Source of the DNA: Thermoprotei archaeon
Lineage (GTDB): Archaea > Thermoproteota > Methanomethylicia > Nezhaarchaeales > B40-G2
Reading direction: 5' to 3'
Assembly (NCBI GenBank): GCA_003649615.1
Contig: QMSI01000004.1
Coordinates: forward strand, 1-52,857
DNA length: 52,857 nucleotides
A program made the translations under genes and the position numbers. Shown here in pieces: positions 9,748 through 48,957 of the stretch (the stretch's first letter is position 1; the number at the start of each line of letters is the position of its first letter). A model generated the notes under the pieces. The model ran no database searches, had not been told where the DNA came from, and worked only from the letters and a program-made list of their open reading frames with translations.

Positions 9748-10662
9748 TTATATCATCACTATGAAGTCGAGCTTCTTCAACAACTCTTGGTATCTATTTC
9801 TCACCGTGACCTCCGTAACGTTAGCGGAGGTGGCGACGTCCTTTTGAGTACATTTACATTGAAGAAGAGCGCTGGCTATGTAAACCGCCGCCGCCACGAT
9901 CCCCATAGGGCCTCTACCGGACGTTAACCCTGCCTCAGCAGCCTTCTCCAGTATCCTCATGGCCTCTACCTGTACCTCGCTGGGTAGCTTGAGCCTTGAT
10001 ATTAGGCGGGGGACGTAGCTTATGGAGGTGGTGGGTACTACCTTAGCTGAGATGGCCCTAAGGAGGAAGCGATAACTTCTACCTACCTCTTTCTTCTTAA
10101 CCTGCGAGACCCCCGCTATTTCGTCGAGGGTCCTAGGCAACTTGGCTTGGCGGCAAGCCATGTAGATGGCGGCGGCCACCATGCTTTCAATAGACCTACC
10201 TCTAATCAGCTTATTCTCCACCGCCTTCCTATATATTATCGCAGCTTCCTCCCTAACGTTCCTTGGCAAACCTAGCTGAGAAGCCATCCGCTCAAGCTCA
10301 GACAAGGCATGGGCCAGGTTTCTCTCAGAGGCGCTTGAAACCCTAACTCTTTGCTGCCACTTCCTAAGCCTATAGACTTGAAGCCTCTTTGTTAAGGTTA
10401 AGCCTTTACCTGAGGCATCACGGCTAGTCCAGTCAATCACCGTGGAGAGGCCTTTATCGTGAATAGTGTGGGTTAAGGGGGCACCTATCCTAGCTCTCTT
10501 ATCCTGTTGCTCTAAATCGAAGGCCCTCCACTCCGGCCCCATATCTATCATTTTTTCCCTAACTACAAGGCCACAGCATAGGCAAGTCATCTCAGCTCTA
10601 TCGTAGTCTCGTACAAACCTTGTACCTCCACATTCGGGACATCTAATGCTTACGCCTTCCAC
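9748..10662 (-). CDS. tfb: Transcription initiation factor B (TFB)
   Basis: The archaeal TFIIB homologue, which binds the TBP-TATA complex and the BRE and recruits RNA polymerase. An N-terminal zinc ribbon (CPECGG ... CLCCGL) is followed by the B-reader region (GPEWRAFD) and two cyclin folds, the first near 95-190 and the second near 200-300, ending in a helix-turn-helix ([16 protein letters not shown]). The GTG at 10662 is chosen over the ATG at 10719: GGAGG lies seven bases before it, the zinc ribbon starts at once, and the longer reading would run 77 bases into gar1. Length is then 304 residues, normal for TFB. It follows gar1 with a 20-base overlap. Confidence 0.93.
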
Positions 10663-10921
10663 GCTTAATCCCTCCAGGTCGCTTAGCCCCCCTGGTCTCC
10701 TTAACGAAAAGCTCACCATTATGAGGTAGCTTCACTGGGAGGGTCTTTATAACTATGTACGGCGACTTAGTGCTCCCTATGATGTCGTAGACCTCCCCAA
10801 CCTCCACGCCTTCACGATTATAAACCTTGGAGCCGAGAGGTGGAAGCGTAGAAAGCATAGAAGGTTTGACTATAAGGGAGCCCAGCTTTGATGCATGTTG
10901 CACCTTGCCGAGTCTCCTCAA
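10643..10921 (-). CDS. gar1: H/ACA ribonucleoprotein subunit Gar1
   Basis: A small RNA-binding subunit of the H/ACA complex that guides pseudouridylation of rRNA and tRNA with Cbf5, Nop10 and L7Ae. The 92 residues have the reduced archaeal form: a single six-stranded barrel ([21 protein letters not shown], then SPYIVIKTL) without the glycine-arginine tails of eukaryotic Gar1, and a short basic C-terminus ([10 protein letters not shown]). The start codon is TTG. A TATA-like ACTTATATTC (10962-10970, minus strand) lies upstream in the divergent gap shared with srp19. It overlaps TFB by 20 bases, so both are probably on one transcript; gar1-tfb linkage is known in archaea. Confidence 0.88.
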
Positions 10922-11784: not shown

Positions 11785-12876
11785 ATGATGAAGGGAAGAT
11801 TGAAGAGAACCATAGCTAAGCTGGAAGAGCAAGGCTTGACTTACGCCTTAATATCCACCCCTGAAAACGTAATGTACCTCACGGGCTTCAAAGCCATAGG
11901 GCAGCCACCGAAGCCCTGCCATCTCCTCATCTCGGCGAAGGAGCCTAAAGCTAAGCTGCTAGTTTCGCCCTTAGACTATGAAGAAGCCATGGAGAGCGTA
12001 GGCAGTGAACTCGAAGTGGTGAAGCTGAAGACTAAGTCCGTCGCCGACGCTCTTTCCAAGATCCTTCCTAGGGGACGTGGAGTTTTAGGTGTGGAGCTAG
12101 GCTACGTCAACCACCTCTTCCTCGAAGAGCTGAAGAGCAAATTAAAGGACGTGGAGCTGAAAGACTTCTCAAGCCAAGTAGAAGAGCTAAGAGCGGTTAA
12201 GGACTCAGAAGAGGTAGAAGCCATAAAGAAAGCTGTTCAAGTAGCCGAAGAGGCCATAAAGAAAGGGCTTAACTTAATAGTCGAAGAGGCCACAGAGAGA
12301 GAAATAGCAGCAGAGATAGAGTATGAAGCTAGGAAAGCTGGAGCTGAGGGGGTTGCCTTCGATACCATCGTCGCTTCAGGGCCCTACTCAGCTTACCCTC
12401 ATAGAACTGCTGGGGAAAGAAAGGTGAGGAAAGGTGAGGCCGTGGTGTTAGATGAAGGTGTGAGGGTGAAGGGGTATTGCTCCGACATAACTAGGACCGT
12501 CGTACTGGGCAAGATCCCTGAAAAGCTAGAGGAAGCCTATGTAGCTGTGCTTGAAGCACAGGAGGAAGCCTCCCGGGCGCTAAAGCCAGGGGTTAAGGCA
12601 TCCACGGTGGATGCTAAGGCAAGAACGTGGCTAAAAAGGAAGAAACTCGCAAGATGGTTCATCCACGGTGTAGGCCACGGCGTAGGTCTAAGTGTACATG
12701 AAAAACCAGCGCTAGCCCCTAAAAGCCACGATAGGTTAATGAGAGGAAACGTTGTCACCCTTGAGCCAGGCATCTACTTGGATAAGCTGGGAGGCGTTAG
12801 GGTGGAGGACATGTACCTCGTGGTTAAGGAAGGAGCTATGAAGCTTACTACCTTAGAGCCACGGTTGGTGCTATAG
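11785..12876 (+). CDS. M24-family metallopeptidase, Xaa-Pro dipeptidase-like
   Basis: A cytosolic two-domain aminopeptidase-P/prolidase family protein of 363 residues. The N-terminal creatinase-like domain (about 1-125, with TPENVMYLTGF) precedes the pita-bread catalytic domain. Metal ligands are visible: Asp in VLDEGVRVKGYCSDITRT (two Asp near 224 and 235), His in HGVGHGVGLSVHE near 297, and Glu in TLEPGIY and GGVRVEDMY near the end. It should cleave N-terminal residues before proline or Xaa-Pro dipeptides. It is the first gene of a tight operon: the next gene starts with the base after its stop codon. Confidence 0.88.
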   Translation: MMKGRLKRTIAKLEEQGLTYALISTPENVMYLTGFKAIGQPPKPCHLLISAKEPKAKLLVSPLDYEEAMESVGSELEVVKLKTKSVADALSKILPRGRGVLGVELGYVNHLFLEELKSKLKDVELKDFSSQVEELRAVKDSEEVEAIKKAVQVAEEAIKKGLNLIVEEATEREIAAEIEYEARKAGAEGVAFDTIVASGPYSAYPHRTAGERKVRKGEAVVLDEGVRVKGYCSDITRTVVLGKIPEKLEEAYVAVLEAQEEASRALKPGVKASTVDAKARTWLKRKKLARWFIHGVGHGVGLSVHEKPALAPKSHDRLMRGNVVTLEPGIYLDKLGGVRVEDMYLVVKEGAMKLTTLEPRLVL

Positions 12877-28428: not shown

Positions 28429-29214
28429 TTATATTAAGGAAGAGCTAGGGGTGGGCTCCTCTGGAATGATGACCACTCTCTCTGAAAAGTTCAAGACTTT
28501 AACCTTCACTCCGTAAACAGACTCTATGTTGCATGGCGTTAGTACCTCAGGCCCGCCTGCAGCGAAAACTTTCCCTTTGATGAGCATTACCACCTTGTCG
28601 CTGTACATCGCCGCGATGTTCAAGTCATGTATAGCCATAACCACTGAAATATCCCTTTCCTTCGCCAGCCTCCTCACCATGTCCATGACCTCGAGCTGAT
28701 GTCTAATATCAAGGTTACTCGTAGGCTCATCAAGCAGAAGCACCTCCGGCTCCACGGCCAGGGCTCTCGCTATAAGCACCTTCTGCCACTCTCCTCCGCT
28801 GAGCTCCCTGATGTCTCTCGTAGCCAGCTCTTTAAGCCCTAGAGCCTCTATTTTATCGGAGACGATCTTTAAGTCCCTGGAGCTAGGGCTCCAGTCCACG
28901 TAGGGTCTCCTACCCATCAACACCATCTCAAAGACCGACATGGGGAAGTGGGCTCTCTCAGATTGAGGTACAAGGCCTATCTTCCTCGCCACCTCCCCTC
29001 TGCTTAATGCATTAATGTCCTTTCCATCCACTAGGATTGTTCCAAGCCTCGGTCTCAGCATCCTGTCTATACACCTAAGTAGCGTGCTCTTACCAGACCC
29101 ATTCGGACCAATAATACTTAGTATCTCCCCACCCTTCACGGTGAGGCTTACATCCTCTAATACAGGGGTACTGTCGTAACTGAATGAAACCCCTTTAACC
29201 TCCAGCCTGACCAT
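28429..29214 (-). CDS. ABC transporter ATP-binding protein, FecE/BtuD type
   Basis: The nucleotide-binding subunit of an importer for iron chelates, heme or corrinoids. The 261 residues carry Walker A GPNGSGKST near 37-45, the Q-loop in VPQSERAHFP near 84, the signature LSGGEWQKVLIARALA near 138-153, Walker B VLLLDEP near 158-164 and the switch His in MAIHDLN near 192. It is the last gene of a three-gene operon: binding protein, permease, ATPase, with 6 bases between permease stop and this start. The ligand cannot be told from this subunit. Confidence 0.92.
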   Translation of the reverse strand: MVRLEVKGVSFSYDSTPVLEDVSLTVKGGEILSIIGPNGSGKSTLLRCIDRMLRPRLGTILVDGKDINALSRGEVARKIGLVPQSERAHFPMSVFEMVLMGRRPYVDWSPSSRDLKIVSDKIEALGLKELATRDIRELSGGEWQKVLIARALAVEPEVLLLDEPTSNLDIRHQLEVMDMVRRLAKERDISVVMAIHDLNIAAMYSDKVVMLIKGKVFAAGGPEVLTPCNIESVYGVKVKVLNFSERVVIIPEEPTPSSSLI

Positions 29215-29220
29215 CTCGTT

Positions 29221-30312
29221 TCACCAAAAGTCCTTCTTCCTCCTAATTAACAGGTAGAAGAAGAGAGGAGTACCCATGAAAGAGGTGACTATACCTACGG
29301 GAAGTACCATGGGTGATATTATCGTCCTCGCAACGGTGTCCGCGGCTAGGAGTAGGACCGCCCCCATGAGGCATGAAGCCGGGATAAGGAACCTGTGGTC
29401 TCCACCAATAACCATCCTGGTCATGTGTGGAGCCACCAGCCCGATGAAGCCTATGGTCCCAAGGAAGCACACAGGGATAGCTGTCAGCAACGATGATAAC
29501 ACGATACCCGCAAGCCTCACCAGCTCAACATCCACTCCAAGGCTCCTAGCCCCCTCGTCACTAATAAGGAGAGCGTTGAGATCCCAGGAGAACTTGAGGA
29601 TCAACACCGCGGTTATTGAAACAGCCGTAACCGACACTACGCTTAGCCTCCACCACGTAGCTTTAGAGAGGCTTCCGAAAAGCCAAAACACCACGGCGGT
29701 TACAGCTTCAGGAGTCGCAAAGTATTGAAGGAGCGCGGTCCCTGCAGAGAACAGATACATCATTGCTATCCCTGATAGGATCATGGTTTCTGGACGGGCG
29801 CCCCTAAACTTCGCTAAGCCCATGACCACGAGCGACGGGATCAAGGCAAAGATGAAGGCGTTGACTGCTACCAGCCATTCGTTGGTGTACGTGACCCCTC
29901 TATACGTGATGATGCCTGCTCCAAGAATAATAGCTAACGCAGCTCCGAAGCCAGCACCAGAAGCCACCCCAAGCGTGTAGGGGCTTGCGAGAGGATTCCT
30001 TAACACGCTCTGCATCACGACCCCAGCTACGGCAAAGGCTGCTCCAGCAACGACAGCCATGAAAATCCTTGGAAGCCTTAGCTCCCATACAATGAGCTGG
30101 ACGAGGCTTGGACACGAAAACGATGGAATAAGCCTAGAGAGAAGCGCGTGGAGGACGTCGTTTACGCCTATAGAGGCTGTGCCGAGAGAGGCTGAGAGAG
30201 GTATTAAGATAAGTAGGAGGACGATGAGGAGGACGATGAAGCATGTCCTCCTCCACGTAAGCCTCAAATACTTCTCTGCTGCGTCCGTGCTTTTCACAGC
30301 CACCGTCCACAC
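29221..30312 (-). CDS. ABC transporter permease, FecCD/BtuC type
   Basis: The membrane subunit of the same importer, 363 residues with about ten hydrophobic helices. Typical FecCD phrases are LRLPRIFMAVVAGAAFAVAG and MQSVLRNPLASPYTLGVASGAGFGA near 95-125 (read as separate blocks), the GSLSKATWWRL region near 215, and CFLGTIGFIGLVAPHMTRM near 302 with the L-loop that contacts the ATPase. The first GTG is chosen; other GTG codons follow closely. A first helix at about residues 25-45 comes after a basic N-terminus. Confidence 0.9.
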   Translation of the reverse strand: MWTVAVKSTDAAEKYLRLTWRRTCFIVLLIVLLLILIPLSASLGTASIGVNDVLHALLSRLIPSFSCPSLVQLIVWELRLPRIFMAVVAGAAFAVAGVVMQSVLRNPLASPYTLGVASGAGFGAALAIILGAGIITYRGVTYTNEWLVAVNAFIFALIPSLVVMGLAKFRGARPETMILSGIAMMYLFSAGTALLQYFATPEAVTAVVFWLFGSLSKATWWRLSVVSVTAVSITAVLILKFSWDLNALLISDEGARSLGVDVELVRLAGIVLSSLLTAIPVCFLGTIGFIGLVAPHMTRMVIGGDHRFLIPASCLMGAVLLLAADTVARTIISPMVLPVGIVTSFMGTPLFFYLLIRRKKDFW

Positions 30313-30349: not shown

Positions 30350-31501
30350 CTAAGCGCTGACGCCTCTGAACGAACCCTGCTTAAAGGAGGTAGTCTCCGT
30401 GAACGGAGGATAGGCGTAAACGCCGCGATACTCTACTCCAAGCCATAGCTCAAAGTAATCCCTGAGGACCACCTCTGGGTCTACGTCTTGGAACCTTTCA
30501 GGGTAGAACCACTTGGCTAAGTACAACTCACCTATAAAGGTCCTCATCCCTCCTAGCAGCTTACTATTCACGATGTAGACTCTACCATTCTTCACGGCGT
30601 TCGTCTCCATCAGCTCGAGCCTATTGCACGTGTCCTCCCAGAGCTGCTCCATACCTGCATAGTCCTCGACGCTATACCCAGAGACCCTTCCATAGTCCGC
30701 GATCACTATCACGTCAGGGTTCTGTTCAAGAACCCACTCAGCTGAGACCTCAGGGTAAGAGACGTTGAAGCCCTCAGCTATATTGATGCCTCCAGCTGCG
30801 ACTATAGCTTGATGTGTAGCTGAGCCTTGAGAAAACGTCTTCCACTGCCTGCTGCCAAACTCCACGTAGACTTTAACCTTCTCCTCGGGCTGCAAGTCCA
30901 TTAACCTATCTTCAACCATATCCATCATGCTCCGCTTCCATGAAATGAAGCTGCTAGCTACGTCCTCCCTCTCGAGGATCATAGCCAGTTTAGTGAGGTC
31001 GGAGTCGAAGGTTTCAGGCTTGTAGAAGTCTAGCCTCACCACAGTGATGTTGAAGGGGGTAAGCATCTCCTCAAGCTCGCTACCAGGCCACCTAGCATAG
31101 GAGATCACGATCTGTGGCTTTAGCTCAGCGATCGCCTCATAGTTAGGGTCTCTCCACGACCCTACGGTGGTTAAGTTCTCCATGTGAAGGTAATCCTTCG
31201 ACGCTACGGTGTCCGAAACGCCCACTATTCTATCTCGAGAGCCTAAGATACACATAGCCTCAGCAGCATCAGTGTTGAGGACCACTACTCTCTCCACTGG
31301 CAGCGTCACTGTAACGTTTCTTCCCGCGGAGTCCGTGATCGTAACTGTCTTAACACCTTCTATCCCCTCCTCCGAAGGGCCGCCCATGAACGTAGGCGCA
31401 GCTAAGATTAAAGCCGCAGCCACCAAGACAACTATGACGAAAGCCACCAGCGAGACTTGAAGGGTTGTTAAAGCCTTCCTACTACGCGCGCGCAAGGCCA
31501 T
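30350..31501 (-). CDS. ABC transporter substrate-binding protein, FecB/BtuF type
   Basis: The extracytoplasmic ligand-binding subunit, 383 residues. A basic N-terminus (MALRARSRK) and one hydrophobic helix (about 16-37) anchor it in the membrane or act as an uncleaved signal; a Ser/Gly-rich linker follows. The class III binding-protein fold has RVVVLNTDAAEAMCILG near 67 and NPDVIVIADYG near 246. Many acidic and aromatic residues (FGSRQWKTFSQGSA near 214) could line the ligand pocket. The ligand may be a corrinoid, heme, or iron or cobalt chelate; shared regulation with cobN favours cobalt or tetrapyrrole. It is first in the operon. Confidence 0.87.
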   Translation of the reverse strand: MALRARSRKALTTLQVSLVAFVIVVLVAAALILAAPTFMGGPSEEGIEGVKTVTITDSAGRNVTVTLPVERVVVLNTDAAEAMCILGSRDRIVGVSDTVASKDYLHMENLTTVGSWRDPNYEAIAELKPQIVISYARWPGSELEEMLTPFNITVVRLDFYKPETFDSDLTKLAMILEREDVASSFISWKRSMMDMVEDRLMDLQPEEKVKVYVEFGSRQWKTFSQGSATHQAIVAAGGINIAEGFNVSYPEVSAEWVLEQNPDVIVIADYGRVSGYSVEDYAGMEQLWEDTCNRLELMETNAVKNGRVYIVNSKLLGGMRTFIGELYLAKWFYPERFQDVDPEVVLRDYFELWLGVEYRGVYAYPPFTETTSFKQGSFRGVSA

Positions 31502-31546: not shown

Positions 31547-31583
31547 GCTATTTAAGTGTTACCGATTAAAATTAAATAACACT
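31547..31583 (-). promoter_or_regulatory. Importer operon promoter with 7-bp inverted repeat operator candidate
   Basis: On the minus strand a TATA box TTAAATAG (31547-31554) lies about 50 bases before the ATG of the binding-protein gene. Directly upstream is GTAACACTTA (31553-31562), the same 10 bases found at the cobN TATA box. AGTGTTA (31555-31561) and TAACACT (31577-31583) form a perfect inverted repeat with a 15-base AT-rich spacer, the layout of a dimeric regulator site. Confidence 0.5.
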
Positions 31584-48823: not shown

Positions 48824-48942
48824 AGGTTTGATTAACTAAAGACATACTTGGTGAAGCCATAGTCCTCCAGGGCTCTTGCTCAGCTCTAAGCGCCTACAGC
48901 CCCGTCCTCCCGGAGGAGGATTTATGTAAAATTTTGTAAATA

Positions 48943-48957
48943 GTAACACTTATAAAG
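48943..48957 (+). promoter_or_regulatory. cobN promoter: TATA box with upstream GTAACACTTA element
   Basis: TTATAAAG (48951-48957 region) is centred 28 bases before the ATG at 48982, so the mRNA is nearly leaderless. GTAACACTTA (48943-48952) overlaps its upstream edge, the BRE position. The same 10 bases occupy the same place at the importer promoter (31553-31562, minus strand). An AT-rich TGTAAAATTTTGTAAATA precedes it. Confidence 0.55.

Follow-up and report, generated by a model that had tools for sequence, protein, structure and literature searches.

What does a 10-mer shared by two promoters of an uncultured archaeon say about their regulation? In the window, i.e. the whole stretch of 52,857 nucleotides that was analysed, GTAACACTTA occurs twice, compared with 0.04 occurrences expected, once upstream of an ABC importer operon and once, on the opposite strand, upstream of cobN. 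In both promoters it continues into a TATA-like box (CTTATAAA at cobN and CTTAAATA at the importer), and its location at the upstream edge of the TATA box, as given in the original prediction, was borne out by the sequence. That prediction also suggested that one regulator couples the uptake of a metal or corrinoid to metal insertion into a tetrapyrrole. We consider it likely that GTAACACTTA is a composite of one arm of a NikR operator (GTAACAC) and the archaeal core promoter (BRE and the start of the TATA box), and that it marks a small nickel regulon consisting of nikR, a FecCD-type importer and a CobN/ChlH-like chelatase.

The shared 10-mer against its genomic background

In the draft genome (1.58 Mb, 94% complete), GTAACACTTA is present four times, and only the two copies in the window are located in promoters; the remaining two (C17:6450 and C76:5622) lie within ORFs. 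As background set, 1.366 Mb of the draft genome (86%) with 1251 upstream 100-mers were used. Shared 10-mers are common in this set: 12,172 different 10-mers are found in at least two of the upstream regions, and no region is without a shared one; the ten-out-of-ten match by itself is therefore weak evidence. Directly before the TATA box, promoters of this genome have the BRE-like consensus RTAA, with GTAA as the favoured tetramer, while CTTA and TTTA are favoured as the start of the box. Thus, GTAA and CTTA within GTAACACTTA are partly expected at any promoter, and ordinary BRE/TATA sequence makes up roughly half of the 10-mer.

The sequence GTAACACTT is found in three of the 1251 upstream regions, those of the importer, cobN and nikR, compared with 0.28-0.39 expected, and the chance of encountering it in one named upstream region is about 3e-4. 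Of 244 other TATA-like boxes in intergenic upstream regions, only 2 have GTAACA before them; one belongs to the importer and one to an operon whose orthologue in a related genome (G018) carries a perfect dyad. Among the 1251 regions, the complete 10-mer is confined to the importer and cobN promoters, and it is kept at the orthologous promoters of the ChlID-cobN operon in L061 and of cobN in L058. Rarity at unrelated TATA boxes and conservation at orthologous promoters, the two tests by which the original prediction could have failed, both came out in its favour. Duplication of a larger block was rejected, as the similarity between the two promoters stops at the element. A riboswitch or other RNA element was likewise rejected for either promoter, with no Rfam match apart from a tRNA elsewhere.

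A NikR-type operator, its probable regulator and the importer

The GTAACAC part of GTAACACTTA corresponds to one arm of the NikR operator published for delta-proteobacteria, GTGTTAC-[N13/14]-GTAACAC (Rodionov et al. 2004, PMC545781), and overlaps the BRE and the TATA box. At the importer promoter, a second, inverted arm (31576-31582), which the original prediction had overlooked, completes a 27-bp dyad. This dyad agrees with the delta-proteobacterial consensus at 13 of 14 positions and is identical in form to the nikMQO site of D. vulgaris, GTGTTAt-[N13]-GTAACAC (PMC545781). Across the 1.58 Mb genome, GTGTTA-N15-TAACAC without mismatches is found only at the importer, and dyads with at least 13 of 14 matching positions are restricted, in 1.366 Mb, to the importer and nikR. 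Two dyads with one mismatch (C26:9421 and C54:8901) lie inside genes and were taken as chance, and genome-wide counts of the pattern with three mismatches were set aside as mostly noise (9 in the window, compared with 12.6 expected). The region 5' of all importer relatives was searched for the dyad and mostly contained none; the importer operator is thus, judged by these sequences, lineage-specific. In relatives of the same class, a perfect palindrome, GTTTCATATGAAAC, recurs ahead of Peripla_BP_2 importers and is a candidate for a different operator.

The nikR gene is located on contig C29 and has its own site, ATGTTAC-N13-GTAACAC, 56 bp upstream. Its product can be aligned over its whole length with the P. 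horikoshii NikR of known structure (2bj1) and has kept the square-planar His/His/His/Cys nickel ligands, EHSFNDVIVSTMHVHLDEENC aligning with 2bj1. The window contig and the nikR contig have the same composition as the genome, and the NikR of one genome of the same family is 76% identical; misbinning is therefore unlikely. A second NikR_C paralogue (contig C1, L103, about 10439-10849) shares 37% identity with the first and has also kept four metal ligands.

The genome encodes a [NiFe]-hydrogenase, and NikM/CbiM is absent from it. Divergent from nikR lies an ORF of which the first ~46 residues are NikM (52% identity to the NikM of G002), while its end is similar to that of a CbiO/NikO ATPase; stop codons come next. 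This fusion ORF is an apparent scar of a nikMNQO deletion beside nikR, with the NikR site retained, and nickel supply may since have passed to the FecCD-type importer. The importer has the complete BtuFCD/FecBCDE-type composition, and its genes for a Peripla_BP_2 binding protein, a FecCD permease and an ABC ATPase form a single operon. The binding protein reached no NCBIfam equivalog cut-off, and the best NCBIfam models of the ATPase were corrinoid, heme and F420-0 importer ATPases, all of them below cut-off. The level of the vitamin B12 importer BtuFCD equivalogs was missed as well, with scores of 65.5 for BtuF (cut-off 234), 228 for BtuC (461) and 234.7 for the corrinoid ATPase (537).

Table 1. 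Positions of promoter elements and genes; coordinates without a contig or locus refer to the window.
Feature	Position	Strand	Support or remark
Importer ABC ATPase	28429..29214	-	PF00005
FecCD-type permease	29221..30312	-	PF01032, 297.6 bits
Substrate-binding protein (Peripla_BP_2)	30350..31501	-	PF01497, 92.9 bits
TATA-like box CTTAAATA, importer operon	31549..31556	-	sequence and consensus context; putative function
GTAACACTTA, right operator arm and first TATA bases	31553..31562	-	sequence
NikR-type operator dyad GTGTTAT-N13-GTAACAC, palindromic	31556..31582	-	downstream arm overlaps importer BRE/TATA
Expected left-arm position at cobN, TTATGTA (N14), degenerate	48922..48928	+	2/7 consensus bases; best dyad 9/14
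GTAACACTTA, single NikR half-site and TATA start	48943..48952	+	same 10-mer at L061:2968 and L058:4913
TATA-like box CTTATAAA, cobN	48949..48956	+	sequence; putative function
CobN/ChlH-type class I chelatase large subunit, 1241 aa	48982..52707	+	PF02514, 1139.8 bits
NikM-CbiO/NikO-like fusion ORF	L100 (G000:C29), about 11867-12109	-	
nikR	C29:12196-12633		PF08753, 102.7 bits; NF003381, 149.6 (cut-off 105)
Palindrome GTTTCATATGAAAC	L029, L030, L036, L043, L046, L048, L049, L051, L053 and others		~60-90 bp upstream of the binding-protein match

The cobN promoter and the chelatase

At the cobN promoter of this genome, a half-site rather than a two-arm operator is present, the right arm matching at all seven positions and the left arm at two; half of the right arm, moreover, falls together with the BRE consensus. 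The centre of CTTATAAA is about 29 bp before the cobN ATG, and the cobN mRNA is therefore probably leaderless. The closest CobN relative (79% identity, L061) has the dyad GTGTTAA-N14-GTAACAC (13 of 14 positions, L061:2947-2974). In its extended form, GTGTTAA-N14-GTAACACTTAAAG, it includes the exact 10-mer and is located 35 bp before an operon in which a ChlI/ChlD fusion gene is combined with cobN. L058, the locus of a CobN relative with 67% identity, carries the exact 10-mer at cobN together with a degenerate upstream dyad, TTGTTAA-N14-GTAATAC. No dyad was found upstream of cobN in L059, L060, L062 and L063, where CobN is 47-56% identical. Three points suggest that cobN is a real NikR target here: the dyad in L061, the 10-mer in L058 and the low chance of the match in a named upstream region. 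The single strong arm may entail weaker binding and a graded response, or it may be a decayed site. For the common regulator of importer and cobN that had been predicted, NikR can thus be named, but the claim is tempered by the one-armed cobN promoter and by the BRE/TATA share of the 10-mer.

The cobN product is full length and nearest to ChlH/BchH. It reaches 966 bits with TIGR02025 (BchH; cut-off 829), in line with membership of the Mg-chelatase H/class I group, and 699 bits with the cobaltochelatase CobN equivalog TIGR02257, which is below the cut-off of 822. The nearest solved structure is ChlH (4zhj, 624 bits), compared with 532 bits for CobN and 404 bits for HmuS; the protein is thus not closest to HmuS. 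A ChlI/ChlD partner adjoins cobN in L061, and in the present genome it is encoded only on contig C72, a composition outlier, and not beside cobN. On this contig (L116, 1246-6762), a ChlI/ChlD fusion is found together with a CobN that is split into two genes, and its tetranucleotide composition (0.72 compared with 0.96-0.98) indicates that it is possibly a contaminant or acquired. Corrin synthesis was rejected as the context of cobN, as CbiF, CbiL and CbiT gave no match in 86% of the genome, a weak negative for which a single set of distant queries was used.

The ATP partner ChlI/ChlD in L061 points to an energy-driven reaction, and the energy-driven reaction of known enzymes is insertion. A nickel-starvation gene beside importers, on the other hand, suggests acquisition, which would favour the removal of nickel from an imported complex. 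For a starvation response, removal is more plausible. Of the predicted coupling between uptake of a metal or corrinoid and metal insertion, the metal can be specified as probably nickel; its removal from a tetrapyrrole is as possible as its insertion.

A candidate nickel regulon in a wider context

In 300 genomes of the phylum, 23 perfect dyads were counted, compared with 14 in a reversed control; many perfect dyads are therefore due to chance, and single matches elsewhere prove little. The informative dyads are those that adjoin relevant genes. In G002 (L231) one lies upstream of nikM-nikN-nikQ, and in G115 (L220) one separates a Peripla_BP_2 gene from an ABC ATPase gene, in both cases with GTAACACTTATA. 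A dyad likewise precedes nikR in G136 (L225); in G126 (L226) it neighbours nikR as well as an ABC-3 metal importer, and in G094 (L228) it accompanies an ABC ATPase gene that has a similar partner. The perfect dyad of G018 (L230) precedes an ECF S-component/TrmO operon (446-1528), and the orthologous operon of the present genome (L121, G000:C6, 732-1800) has the half-site GTAACATTTATA; this operon is a candidate for a further NikR-controlled transporter. In both genomes this operon consists of two genes, one for a Trep_Strep-like ECF S-component and one for a protein of the TrmO family; in the present genome, the latter carries a His-rich tail at its end.

CobN and importer genes adjoin in about half of the relatives checked, with gene order taken from match coordinates. 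A Peripla_BP_2 gene is present within ~6 kb of cobN in nine genomes (G002, G028, G031, G048, G062, G069, G114, G115 and G136), often at less than 500 bp and usually in the same orientation. There was none near cobN of G005, G017, G057, G372, G398 and the present genome, and the contigs of G008 and G334 are too short to tell. The proposed co-regulation thus matches a physical association seen elsewhere. In G115 (C10:14787-21491), three tandem Peripla_BP_2 matches in one long open frame are found directly before cobN.

If NikR controlled only the importer and nikR itself, the match at cobN would be a BRE/TATA coincidence in an AT-rich promoter or the remnant of a lost operator, and cobN would not be nickel-regulated. 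The single arm, the general RTAA consensus and the abundance of shared 10-mers agree with such a reading, but we regard it as unlikely, given the low expectation for GTAACACTT both in the whole set and per named gene. Moreover, the gene concerned is the one whose closest relative has a near-perfect dyad and whose L058 counterpart keeps the exact 10-mer, and the two other boxes preceded by GTAACA are those of the importer and of the operon with the perfect dyad in G018. That both promoters merely share a strong-promoter sequence (BRE and TATA), without any regulator, is hardly credible: it would account for GTAA and for the CTTA/TTTA start of the box, but CAC at the junction of element and box is outside the BRE/TATA consensus, the inverted second arm at the importer has the right spacing and is unique in the genome, and the dyad recurs at nikR.

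A different regulator, either the C1 paralogue or another RHH protein that senses cobalt or another metal, would turn the set into a cobalt/corrinoid regulon. The four ligands of the paralogue, the resemblance of the importer to corrinoid/heme importers, and the zinc sensing suggested in one case for a Methanothermobacter NikR homologue (PMC3087415) could be cited for this alternative. Yet the near-perfect dyad is located at the first nikR, whose product exceeds the NikR equivalog cut-offs, the same dyad is present at nikMNQ in G002, and the DNA-contact strand R-x-S/G-V-S/T is common to the first NikR and its site-bearing relatives and different in the paralogue. As CbiF, CbiL and CbiT were without match in the part of the genome that was read, corrin synthesis is disfavoured too, and the cobalt/corrinoid alternative appears distinctly improbable.

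For the NikR-controlled nickel regulon, we infer the following switch. With ample nickel, Ni-NikR would bind the operator across BRE and TATA box, and repression would result from the exclusion of TBP and TFB; with scarce nickel, importer and chelatase would be derepressed together. The importer would then take up a nickel complex, either a metallophore or a tetrapyrrole, and the chelatase would move nickel into a tetrapyrrole or, in keeping with starvation, out of it. In this uncultured archaeon, both are probably switched on together at nickel shortage.

The NikR regulon of delta-proteobacteria (PMC545781) has the same operator and regulator family and also controls a nickel importer. It differs from the present case, in which NikR would act on its own gene, a FecCD-type importer and a CobN/ChlH-type chelatase; here, moreover, the operator arm merges with an archaeal BRE and TATA box, and nikMNQO is lost. 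In the open-access literature, NikR, chelatase and regulon were encountered together only in this study, in which CobN does not appear, and earlier reports elsewhere are possible. The NiuBDE/CeuE system of Helicobacter pylori (PMC7840056) likewise combines a binding-protein-dependent ABC nickel importer with the repression of nickel uptake genes by NikR; CeuE (4ino) is one of the solved structures to which the present binding protein is distantly related. In contrast to the archaeal system, that of H. pylori is bacterial, involves outer-membrane receptors and has no chelatase coupled to it. In the hmu operon of Bacteroidota (PMC12583661), the heme de-chelatase HmuS, a CobN/ChlH-superfamily protein, is genetically coupled to an importer for metal acquisition. 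HmuS acts on iron/heme and works without ATP partners, whereas here the metal would be nickel, the closest CobN relative is accompanied by ChlI-ChlD, and the sequence is nearer to ChlH. In Methanothermobacter marburgensis, a published proteomics study found high levels of CobN1 and NikR1 solely under nickel limitation (PMC12350162). The joint rise of a CobN and a NikR homologue resembles the response proposed here, but M. marburgensis is a methanogen with F430, and the passage on this response describes no operator or importer link, whereas the archaeon studied here, uncultured and of Thermoproteota type, lacks NikM.

In the 2025 HmuS paper (PMC12583661), the part played by the CobN/ChlH homologues of archaea is described as unclear. 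We tentatively suggest, as a possibility that we would not put at even chances, that those beside FecCD-type importers are nickel-acquisition enzymes, with NikR-controlled import of a nickel tetrapyrrole or metallophore followed by ATP-driven, ChlH-type recovery of nickel, or its loading at very low nickel concentrations. If true, this would be the nickel counterpart of heme-iron harvesting by HmuS. NikR control and the link to an importer would assign to the orphan archaeal CobN/ChlH homologues a specific function in nickel homeostasis that can be tested. Such a nickel regulon would also fit the unexplained methanogen proteomics, in which CobN1 and NikR1 appear only under nickel limitation (PMC12350162).
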